Below, piece by piece: positions 17,244 through 61,429 of a stretch of DNA of 64,000 bases. The stretch is from Halorussus salinus. Lineage in GTDB: Archaea > Halobacteriota > Halobacteria > Halobacteriales > Haladaptataceae. Location of the stretch: contig NZ_ML974128.1 of the NCBI RefSeq assembly GCF_004765815.2, forward strand, positions 248,001 through 312,000, written 5' to 3'. The notes below the pieces were generated by a model. The model ran no database searches, was not told the DNA's origin, and saw only the letters and a program-made list of their open reading frames with translations. Made by a program: the position numbers and the translations under genes. The stretch's first letter is position 1; each line of letters opens with the position of its first letter.

Positions 17244-17837
17244 ATGACAACCGCAGAGGACCCATCGCTCACCGCCGACGGCGTGGCTCGGCGTGCGACG
17301 CTGGCCCGCGGCGCAGTCGCGGGCGTCGGCGCGTGGCTACTCGGCTATCTGGTCGCGTACGTCTGGAAGTCCCAAGCCGTCTCGGAGGCGCTCCGCGGCG
17401 TCGGCTTCGTCTCGGAACTGCTCGGCGGCGAGGCGATTCCCGCGTGGAAGGGCGTCTCGTGGCTCTTCTTCAACGCCCACTTCGTCGCCGCCCGGTTCCC
17501 GACCATCACGGGCGGGACCCAGACCGCGAACTTCGTGACCGGCGAGGAGGGTTCGACCGCGATGCTGGCGCTCCCGGTCGTCGTCCTCCTCGCGGCCGGA
17601 GTCGTCGCCGCGTACGGGCGACCGGGCGGCGCGCTCGAACGCGCGAAAGCGGGCGCGACGGTCGCGCTCGGCTACCTCCCGCTGTCGGCCGGGGTCGCGC
17701 TGGTCGCGACCCACGCCATCGGCGACACCGACGCCGCCATCGCGCCCGACCTCGTGACCGCGGTTCTCCTCGCAGGACTGGTCTATCCGCTGGCGCTGGG
17801 CGCTGTCGGCGGCGCGTTGAGTAGCGCGCTTGAGTAG
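17244..17837 (+). CDS. Integral membrane protein of unknown function
   Basis: 197 residues from the ATG at 17244; the frame extends upstream but without membrane-protein character. About five hydrophobic helices (AVAGVGAWLLGYLVAYVW, then near 110, 140, 160 and 175). A 45-residue loop after helix 1 contains Trp/Phe-rich SWLFFNAHFVAARFP. It resembles haloarchaeal 'transporter' hypotheticals (DUF7978-like by memory). No catalytic motif is seen. Confidence 0.7.
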   Translation: MTTAEDPSLTADGVARRATLARGAVAGVGAWLLGYLVAYVWKSQAVSEALRGVGFVSELLGGEAIPAWKGVSWLFFNAHFVAARFPTITGGTQTANFVTGEEGSTAMLALPVVVLLAAGVVAAYGRPGGALERAKAGATVALGYLPLSAGVALVATHAIGDTDAAIAPDLVTAVLLAGLVYPLALGAVGGALSSALE

Positions 17838-17933
17838 GACGAACGGGACGGTACCGGACGGGTGACGCTTTTCGTCGGAATTACGCTCACGAGATAGCGA
17901 CCGCTCGACTGGACAGACACCCGTTCGGGTGGA

Positions 17934-18058
17934 TGAAAGGGGCCGCCTGCTCGCGGGTCGAAGACCCGTGGTCGCTTGCTCGGCCACTATCCGCGCCGGG
18001 CGGTGCGGAGAGGCACAGATATGCCGAGCAACGACCGCGAGCGGGCGGGGGCTTTCGA
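17934..18058 (+). repeat. Structured dispersed element, family 2, copy X
   Basis: 125-bp element in the gene-free gap 17838-18140. It starts TGAAAGGGGCCGCC and ends GGGCGGGGGCTTTCGA; the two ends are complementary at 10 of 13 positions. Inside are a 6-bp hairpin CGGGTC/GACCCG with loop GAA (17954-17968), a 9-bp stem TTGCTCGGC/GCCGAGCAA (17976-17984 with 18023-18031), and the loop GGGCGGTGCGGAGAG. A second copy lies at 61034-61159 on the other strand with the same ends and loop but different stems. Outside the element the gap shows nothing I recognise. Confidence 0.75.
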
Positions 18059-18140
18059 GGACTCCACGGTTCCGATTCCGGCGGTCACCTCAAAGCGAGG
18101 AGTGCCCGAAAACGAGTGAACCATTCCGAGAACGAGTTCG

Positions 18141-23544: not shown

Positions 23545-23686
23545 CGGCGCGCGCTGGCGCGAGTTCATCTCGCGCCGTCGTCGCGCGAGGGATGACCGAA
23601 CGAAGTGAGGGAAGCGGTTGGGGAGGTGTGAGGCCCGTGCGGGGCGGTGTCATGCGGTGGCGTCGCGGTCACTCCGAGGTGTCGGC
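23545..23686 (-). repeat. Structured dispersed element, family 1, copy A
   Basis: Lies in the gap 23460-23772. Read on the minus strand it runs GCCGACACCTCGGAGT, an ACCGC-rich tract, CACACCTCCCCAACCG, CATCCCTCGCGCG, then a hairpin with perfect 8-bp arms GGCGCGAG/CTCGCGCC (plus-strand 23556-23563 with 23569-23576, loop of 5), and AGCGCGCGCC. No gene is supported in this gap. Confidence 0.75.
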
Positions 23687-29998: not shown

Positions 29999-30035
29999 AC
30001 CTCCCGATTCGGGCGAGCGCAGGAAAAACCTCGGC

Positions 30036-30139
30036 GGTTCGGCCACGAGCCAGTTTGGCGATTCGGCCACGAACCAGTTTGGCGATTTGGCCACGAACCA
30101 GTTTGGCGGTTCAACCACGAGCCAGTTTGGCGGTTCGTG
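30036..30139. repeat. Four and one-third tandem 24-bp repeats upstream of the TatD-like gene
   Basis: Units at 30036-30059, 30060-30083, 30084-30107 and 30108-30131 plus 8 bp, sharing GGCCACGARCCAGTTTGG. The array sits within the 332-bp gene-free gap 29999-30331, just upstream of the TatD-like start on the minus strand, so it would lie in its promoter or leader. Units differ at 1-4 positions. The rest of the gap holds no recognised feature. Confidence 0.85.
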
Positions 30140-30829: not shown

Positions 30830-30926
30830 TCGTTTCCGGAGTTCGGTCATCGCGGGACGGCGGTCGAAATCAGTGCGTAGACAGCTACCGCCGACGCCAC
30901 TCGGACTGCACCGCGACCGCGAACCG

Positions 30927-31070
30927 CACTGCAACTGGGACCGTAGACCACACCGCAACTGCGACCGTGGACCACACTGCAACTGGGACCGTAGACCACA
31001 CCGCAACTGCGACCGTGGACCACACTGCAACTGGGACCGTAGACCACACCGCAACTGCGACTGCAAACTA
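30927..31070 (+). repeat. Six tandem 24-bp repeats in alternating A/B form
   Basis: Six units (30927, 30951, 30975, 30999, 31023, 31047). Odd units begin CACTGCAACTGGGACCGTAG; even units begin CACCGCAACTGCGACCGTGG. Units 1, 3 and 5 are identical, as are 2 and 4, so the recent duplication unit is 48 bp. The array lies in the 444-bp gap 30830-31274, directly before family 1 copy B. It looks like an expansion of that element's ACCGC-rich tract. Confidence 0.9.
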
Positions 31071-31077
31071 CACTAAA

Positions 31078-31228
31078 GCCGACACCAAGGAGTCACTGCA
31101 CAGCACCGCGACCGCACCGTAACCGCATCCGCCTCACACCTCCCCAACCTTCTGCGTTGCTCCCTGCGGTGCGCTACTCGGCCCTCGCGCGGTGTGGCGA
31201 CCCACGGGGGGTCGCCCCGCACGCGCCG
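31078..31228 (+). repeat. Structured dispersed element, family 1, copy B
   Basis: Starts GCCGACACCAAGGAGTCACT, then GCACAGCACCGCGACCGCAC, CACACCTCCCCAACC, a variable block, CCCTCGCGCG and a hairpin with perfect 8-bp arms GGCGACCC/GGGTCGCC (31196-31203 with 31209-31216), ending CCGCACGCGCC. It closely matches copy D at 47494. Confidence 0.78.
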
Positions 31229-35470: not shown

Positions 35471-35659
35471 CCGGCGCGCGCTGGCGGACTCCTCGTGGGT
35501 CCGCCAACCGCGCGAGGGATGAGTAGCGCAACGAAGTGAGGCTTGCGAGACGCGAAGCGCCTCGCTGATCTGCGAACGTTGTTCGCAGACAACGCAATCG
35601 GTTGGAGAGGGTGTGGCTCGCTGTTGCGGTGCGGATGCGGGAGACTCCGTTTTGTCGGC
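35471..35659 (-). repeat. Structured dispersed element, family 1, copy C (long form)
   Basis: Read on the minus strand: GCCGACAAAACGGAGTC, CCGCACCGCAACAGCGAGCC, ACACCCTCTCCAACCGATTG, a variable block with its own 9-bp hairpin TCTGCGAAC/GTTCGCAGA, then CATCCCTCGCGCG and the terminal hairpin TGGCGGAC/GTCCGCCA (plus-strand 35482-35489 with 35499-35506), ending AGCGCGCGCC. It fills most of the gap 35434-35907; the remainder is AT-rich promoter-like DNA. Confidence 0.78.
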
Positions 35660-47493: not shown

Positions 47494-47647
47494 GCCGACT
47501 CCAAGGAGTCACCGCAACCGCACCGCACAGCACCGCGGTCACGAGCCACACCCTCCCCAACCGATTGCGGTCCTCGGCCACCGGCCTGCGGTCCTCATCC
47601 CTCGCGCGGATGGGCGCGGCGCACGAACGCCGCGCCGCACGCGCCGG
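47494..47647 (+). repeat. Structured dispersed element, family 1, copy D
   Basis: Lies in the gap 47352-47738. It reads GCCGACTCCAAGGAGTCACC, CGCACCGCACAGCACCGCGG, GAGCCACACCCTCCCCAACC, GATTGCGG, a variable block with a direct repeat GCGGTCCTC, CATCCCTCGCGCG, and a hairpin with perfect 8-bp arms GCGCGGCG/CGCCGCGC (47614-47621 with 47628-47635), ending CGCACGCGCC. It is the best-preserved copy. Nothing else is seen in the gap. Confidence 0.8.
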
Positions 47648-53382: not shown

Positions 53383-53425
53383 GAGGACCGCAGAGCGTCG
53401 AATCGGGAAGAGCTGAAGCGAAGCG

Positions 53426-53529
53426 CCGAGTCAGGGATTCACGCCGAAACACCGAGTTAGGGATTCACGCTAAAACGCCGAGTCAGGGATTCACGCTAAA
53501 ACGCCGAGTCAGGGGTTCACGCGGGCGAG
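53426..53529. repeat. Four tandem 26-bp repeats ending in the metalloprotease stop codon
   Basis: Units at 53426, 53452, 53478 and 53504, each with CCGAGTCAGGGATTCACGCT or a close variant; the fourth is partly degenerate. On the minus strand each carries the codons for VNP followed by TGA, identical in sense to the end of the adjacent gene (stop at 53509-53511). The last unit overlaps the coding end. Confidence 0.85.
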
Positions 53530-60907: not shown

Positions 60908-61033
60908 TCGGCCTCGAACGCTTCTTTCTCTCTGCGGTCTCTTCGTTTTCGTGTAGTCGCTTCTGTATCGATTCGATTTTCGATAGACGAGACCGTTGTA
61001 CGGGTCGCCACGGGAGCGACCGCGGCGAACGTT

Positions 61034-61159
61034 TCGAAAGCCCCCGCCCGGTCGCGGTCGCTCCGCGAGATATTTCCGCGCTCTCCGCACCGCCCGCGCG
61101 GAAATAGTTGCCCGCGGAGACGACCACGGCCTGCGGCCGCGACCGGGCGGCCCCTTTCA
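61034..61159 (-). repeat. Structured dispersed element, family 2, copy Y
   Basis: 126 bp in the gap 60908-61429. On the minus strand it starts TGAAAGGGGCCGCCCG and ends CGGGCGGGGGCTTTCGA, as copy X does. Inner stems: CGGCC/GGCCG with loop GCA (plus 61127-61139), CTCCGCG/CGCGGAG (61061-61067 with 61113-61119) and an 11-bp stem TATTTCCGCGC/GCGCGGAAATA (61071-61081 with 61096-61106) around the same loop GGGCGGTGCGGAGAG. No gene is supported in the rest of the gap, where an AT-rich stretch near 61395-61405 may be the purF promoter. Confidence 0.75.
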
Positions 61160-61429
61160 GCCCACCCAAACGGAGGTTCGTGGAATCGAGCGCGTTCCAG
61201 TGGAGTGTATCACGGAGCGTTCGCTGGCGGAGGCGTCACCGAGCGCATCCGGGGTGGCCTGCGTCACCGAGCGCGCCCGACGCCATCGTCGGGTGGCGTC
61301 CGGGCCGGAATCGGAGGTTTCAGTGTTGTAACTAGAAGTGTACGAGAACGTGCATACATTCGGGGCGCCGGTCGGATTTTTCGGCACGATAGCGAGGGTT
61401 TTTACTACGGTGGCGCAGTAGCTCCGTCC

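Follow-up and report, generated by a model that had tools for sequence, protein, structure and literature searches.

Dispersed hairpins with a near-invariant base in haloarchaeal intergenic regions, a candidate family of transposase-free mobile elements

What kind of sequence occurs twice in one stretch of Halorussus salinus DNA, with complementary ends and with stems that differ in both arms at once? An initial annotation of the window, the whole 64-kb stretch of DNA analysed here, had named two such copies, X on the plus and Y on the minus strand, and read them as a folded RNA or a structured repeat. Both copies were present at 17934-18058 and 61034-61159, with a common start of 14 nt and a common end of 16 nt that were exact in both. 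Their length was described as the same, it is 125 nt for X and 126 nt for Y. Start motif and end motif each occurred exactly twice in the window; chance would provide 0.56 starts with up to two mismatches and 2.2 ends with up to three mismatches, while the real pairs are exact. The quoted stems of X and Y were found and differed in the paired manner described. Compared with dinucleotide shuffles, X and Y folded with z-scores of -6.6 and -5.9, and none of 200 shuffles folded as well.

The element is larger than the annotated interval, its true start lies about 12 nt upstream, at GTTCGGGTGGA in X and GTTTGGGTGGGC in Y. According to covariance model and fold, the whole element of copy X covers 17921-18060 (+). 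Its conserved single-stranded 5' lead, GTTCGGGTGGA together with the two preceding bases, occupies 17921-17933 and is followed by the P1 arm GAAAG (17935-17939, 3' arm CTTTC at 18052-18056), an internal loop of GGG (17940-17942) opposite GGG (18049-18051) and the P2 arm (17943-17955, 3' arm at 18036-18048). Copy Y covers 61032-61173 on the minus strand, as defined by the same model and fold, with the P1 arms at 61154-61158 (GAAAG) and 61036-61040 (CTTTC), the GGG at 61151-61153 opposite the GGG at 61041-61043, and the P2 arms at 61138-61150 and 61044-61056.

Each copy of the family is a single long hairpin. The 5' part consists of the single-stranded lead GTYTGGGTGGAC, P1, the GGG/GGG internal loop and P2 with 13 bp. 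The upper part contains a small and often degenerate side hairpin P3, a P4 with one bulged T, and an asymmetric loop; a UAU/AUA helix carries a variable tip. Extra hairpins are sometimes present at the tip and at the P3 position. The loop GGGCGGTGCGGAGAG, presumed to be fixed in the initial annotation, was exact in only 4 of 27 own copies, the rest had unrelated tips; it is one among several tip types. The truly constant unpaired part is instead the GGG/GGG internal loop, which was constant in 77 distinct copies save for one A in one copy. The basal stem GAAAG/CTTTC is nearly invariant and further unpaired positions are conserved to more than 90 %. In other families of the order, the bases of P2 can differ widely with the GGG/GGG loop retained. 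One copy (L103, 3035, +) is a perfect palindrome, GAAAGGGGCC...GGCCCCTTTC, in which the GGG/GGG mismatch has turned into GGG/CCC. Downstream of the element, the 3' tail GGGCGGGGGCTTTC was duplicated in L139 (~3097, -), L119 (~2596, -), L091 (~4805, -), L133 and L144, as a tandem array of ~38-nt units in L139 and elsewhere after 60-70 nt of unique sequence.

Stem changes that are not paired would have spoken against a fold. In an alignment of 77-79 copies, 98.5 % of the cells were paired and 23 of 35 pairs had a double change. None of 500 shuffles reached any of the observed measures, and the signal collapsed when the partner was slid by 1-3 columns. Fitting to the model biases the pair counts of this alignment towards the structure; an alignment of 22 copies that was not model-fitted agreed with the covariation. 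In the model-fitted alignment, G.U pairs exceeded A.C pairs (40 versus 16, p = 9e-4), which points to the written strand as the folded one. Six loci (L086, L087, L125, L133, L139 and L144) contained elements of a second type, which combines the basal module of the first (GGGACTGAAAGGGG...GGGGCTTTC) with a different core (GCACCGCAG...GAGGAGCGCAGCGAG); in L086 and L087 it stood head to head with an element of the first type. Minimal hairpins also exist as relatives of the family. The combination of one base with different cores and minimal hairpins would fit a recognition module that they share and an upper part that can be exchanged.

A search for the start motif with one mismatch allowed revealed 29 sites in the H. 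salinus genome, 27 of them elements. The covariance model R1 was built from 22 of the elements in this genome. The initial annotation had proposed such a search and had regarded a lack of further copies in related genomes as an argument against its reading; R1 matched 51 times in the 4.75-Mb genome and many more times in related genomes. At least one match was present in 105 of 195 sampled genomes of the order, and the named carriers were mainly Halorussus, also Haladaptatus, in addition to Halobacteriales MAGs. Within Halorussus, the copy number varied from 106 in Halorussus salilacus (G074), 94 in G041, 51 in H. salinus and 37 in G097 to 11 in G118, 10 in G176, 7 in G066, 1 in G136 and 0 in G017. 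A pattern scan for short inserts in 393 genomes of the phylum yielded matches in 3 genomes only, all within the order, because the pattern detects only minimal forms. Phage records searched for the family had no match, and viral contigs with the two boxes searched numbered only 1 and 3. The suggested comparison with Rfam revealed no meaningful match at gathering or relaxed thresholds and none at or above the gathering score.

All 50 own copies examined were intergenic and occurred in all orientations. With genes called by our own codon score, 19 copies had both neighbouring genes on their own strand, 15 were antisense to both neighbours, 12 were in convergent and 4 in divergent gaps; a clear preference for an orientation was not observed among these 50 copies. 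Copy Y is antisense to both neighbouring genes. On an annotated plasmid of H. salilacus the copies were likewise intergenic, and one copy in H. caseinilyticus partially overlapped a short annotated hypothetical ORF. Signals of transcription were not detected: no A/T run of at least six was present in the 60 nt upstream of the 50 own copies, where shuffles predict 3.1, and none had a T5 run as terminator downstream. The initial reading therefore stands for the structured repeat, with 51 matches and paired stems, and finds no support for an RNA beyond the fold itself, considering the missing A/T and T5 runs, the lack of an orientation preference and the result with Rfam. A chromosomal strand bias, as would be expected from a coupling to replication, appeared suggestive on contig 1 of G000 and was rejected after permutation (p = 0.53; G074, 0.81).

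The occupancy of sites differed between species. The closest own pair had 94.7 % identity across exactly GTTTGGG...CTTTC and none beyond, which defines the unit of duplication. For only 13 of 30 loci in G097 did both flanking genes match those of an own locus with a copy. In G118 and G176, with flanking genes ~95 % identical, one junction held one element in the former and two in the latter, and the rest of the junction was rewritten. The junction of X contained an element in opposite orientation in G041. The junction of Y had elements in G097, G124 and G082, a rearranged or degenerate remnant in G066 and G136, and none in other species. The species compared yielded no clean empty site resolved to the base, and target duplications were not seen, the k-mers common across junctions equalled those of shuffled controls. 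Elements and immediate flanks were mostly less similar than the surrounding genes at shared sites; in the pair L078/L083 the element was nearly identical and the adjacent upstream sequence had diverged. A range of decayed copies was present. The flanks of X (window 17828-18137) were located in G097 at C1:355975-356702 and C1:289877-290523, separated by ~66 kb and oppositely oriented, which indicates an inversion breakpoint inside the gap that holds copy X.

How the stems change was visible at 13 sites shared by G097 and G000. Of the stem pairs, 335 were unchanged and 56 had changed in both arms with pairing retained; in 6, a change in one arm left the pairing intact, and 23 were broken, chiefly in decayed copies. 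In L358/L057, both arms of P2 differed in a block of 4 bp, with P4 and the tip stem being the same. Ordinary compensatory evolution would be expected to leave more one-sided intermediates, hence copies or segments have probably been replaced, or one arm has been copied from the other. Since the arms change in concert, covariation by itself is no proof of RNA; hairpin-templated DNA change or copy replacement could be its source. Either process would erase mismatches, and thus the near-invariant GGG/GGG loop appears as the best evidence of selection on the fold.

We consider it on balance probable that the family is a non-autonomous, transposase-free dispersed mobile hairpin of haloarchaea, similar to REP or SMR sequences and dependent on a putative mobilising protein. 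A copy number of 0 to 106 inside one genus, the sharp borders of the closest pair, the minority of G097 loci with both flanks shared, and the altered element number or orientation at the G118/G176 junction and at the junction of X speak for this reading, as do the exclusively intergenic placement in all orientations without promoter-like or terminator-like signals, the near-invariant mismatch together with the G.U excess, the decayed copies and the combination of one base with other cores. The duplicated unit would comprise the ~130 nt between GTYTGGGTGGAC and CTTTC, both included. It would fold as a single strand into a fixed base, composed of the G-rich 5' lead, GAAAG/CTTTC and GGG/GGG, and an interchangeable upper part. 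The base may serve as docking site of the mobilising protein, the active form may be single-stranded DNA rather than RNA, and an enzyme acting in trans may spread the hairpin. The arms probably change in concert, either by hairpin-templated repair or by one copy replacing another. Selection would hold the base fixed, and copies with broken stems would decay and accumulate. Against mobility count that neither an autonomous partner nor an enzyme was found, that clean empty sites were missing, that many sites are shared between species, that the conserved element in L078/L083 fits a host function as well, and that the G.U excess derives from a model-fitted alignment.

A role in RNA was weighed in two forms. 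The hairpin may be a cis-acting transcript element that protects or ends the read-through message of a neighbouring gene, with mobility being secondary. Bacterial REP sequences can protect or end messages, and the 19 copies between genes on their own strand, the few divergent gaps, the identical pair of co-directional neighbours that some copies have across several species and the G.U excess of the written strand agree with such a function. The 15 antisense copies, copy Y among them, and a copy number of 0-1 in some Halorussus species do not, and we regard this explanation as unlikely. Independent small RNA genes present in many copies would account for the strong covariation and the fixed internal loops, yet the regions upstream and downstream lack A/T and T5 runs, copies range from none to more than 100 within one genus, paired changes have few intermediates and Rfam provides no meaningful match; such genes are improbable. 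A retrotransposed, SINE-like RNA was rejected, a reverse transcriptase (PF00078) was encoded in none of the 18 Halorussus genomes.

Two further explanations operate on DNA. Y1 transposases recognise hairpins in single-stranded DNA and TnpB genes are common in these genomes, which would agree with a MITE or PATE as deletion derivative of a known insertion sequence, above all of IS200/IS605. However, the Y1 transposase (PF01797) was found in 10 of 18 Halorussus genomes and was absent in the copy-rich G041, G114, G097, G130, G156 and G058. The TnpA and TnpB loci examined had no element box at their ends, target duplications were not seen, and among the loci examined none held a longer, ORF-containing autonomous element bounded by the ends of the hairpin. 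The Y1-based origin is thus largely refuted, and a derivation from a known insertion sequence has little probability. As partners of the hairpin, neither the Y1 transposase, missing in several copy-rich species, nor TnpB, encoded in all 18 Halorussus genomes including the element-free one, was supported; two small elements were the only ones near the TnpB loci examined. The passive alternative assumes a palindrome in which template switching or repair copies arm from arm, by mutation alone and without selection. The ratio of 56 double compensated to 6 one-sided, still-paired changes, the P2 block swapped in both arms of L358/L057 with the inner part nearly unchanged, and the perfect palindrome of L103 would be explained. 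Arm correction would, however, erase the GGG/GGG mismatch, which several families of the order keep essentially without variation, and the other unpaired positions are conserved as well. The invariant mismatches largely refute this explanation, which we rate as very improbable; as the route by which the arms change, arm copying is plausible.

In the literature on the motif letters and on haloarchaeal repeats, a description of this hairpin family was not found; the SMRs, compared by description, are the nearest published class, with the hairpins as candidate members at most. SMR-A of Haloquadratum walsbyi (HqIRS42, HqIRS43, HqIRS55) are ~110 bp long and have inverted termini unrelated to transposons; SMRs have no target duplication, no transposase and up to 54 copies, and their mobilisation was called enigmatic (PMC3119063). 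Repeats or orientations that differ at a single position were termed 'SwitchRepeats', and SMRs of one type are usually more than 95 % identical and often inside PATE or IS605 elements (PMC3119063). The hairpins resemble SMR-A in size, complementary termini, copies in the tens, the absence of target duplication and transposase, and the occurrence of different repeats, or of different orientations, at one position. In contrast, the hairpin copies show more diversity and are flanked by ordinary genes, the 50 own copies all lying between called genes, without preferential insertion in PATE or IS605 palindromes. With bacterial REP and REPIN sequences they share the character of short extragenic palindromes in many copies, the single-strand fold and the non-autonomous state. 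Bacterial REPs have 20-40 bp and are tied to Y1 (RAYT) transposases, whereas the hairpin has ~130 nt and copy-rich species lack this transposase, so that the tie that characterises REPs fails. Like haloarchaeal PATEs and MITEs, the hairpins are dispersed, transposase-free and palindromic; unlike these, they have ends unrelated to known IS ends and no target duplication. Integron attC sites are folded single strands in which the base is conserved, a spacer is unpaired, the stem sequence is free and the tip varies. The hairpins are analogous in all these features, but cassette arrays were not seen around them.

If the mobile reading is true, a large class of mobile hairpins has been overlooked in haloarchaea; an undiscovered enzyme would spread them, and the invariant base module would make that enzyme easy to hunt for. 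Rather doubtful, and offered tentatively, is the wider proposal of an order-wide class in which a putative enzyme reads the folded strand via a tandem G.G mismatch module, possibly a G-quartet favoured by the high intracellular potassium, and in which hairpin-templated change rewrites the stems in matched pairs and so creates covariation without RNA function. The family is also a warning: standard covariation tests are passed with very strong values, but the paired changes are nearly without one-sided intermediates, a pattern expected if the DNA hairpin templates its own change or if copies replace one another. With the covariance model, a recurrent and so far unexplained feature between haloarchaeal genes could be annotated.

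Other repeats accompany the hairpins. In Halorussus, a degenerate 27-nt repeat is often located upstream in a fixed phase of -29, -56 and -83; 18 of 25 genome matches to its consensus were directly upstream of an element, all on the strand of the element. Such repeats precede copy Y at 61174-61280 (-), with the phase fixed relative to the element. Another dispersed repeat, ending in GGTTGGGGAGGTGTGAGG, occurred in the window at 23595-23642, 31123-31170, 35593-35632 and 47530-47569; in other loci, it is often directly upstream of the hairpin, and it was upstream in L005, L016, L226 and L336. Separate tandem repeats were present in the window at 30020-30137 and 30910-31074 (24-nt units each) and at 53421-53522 (26-nt units).
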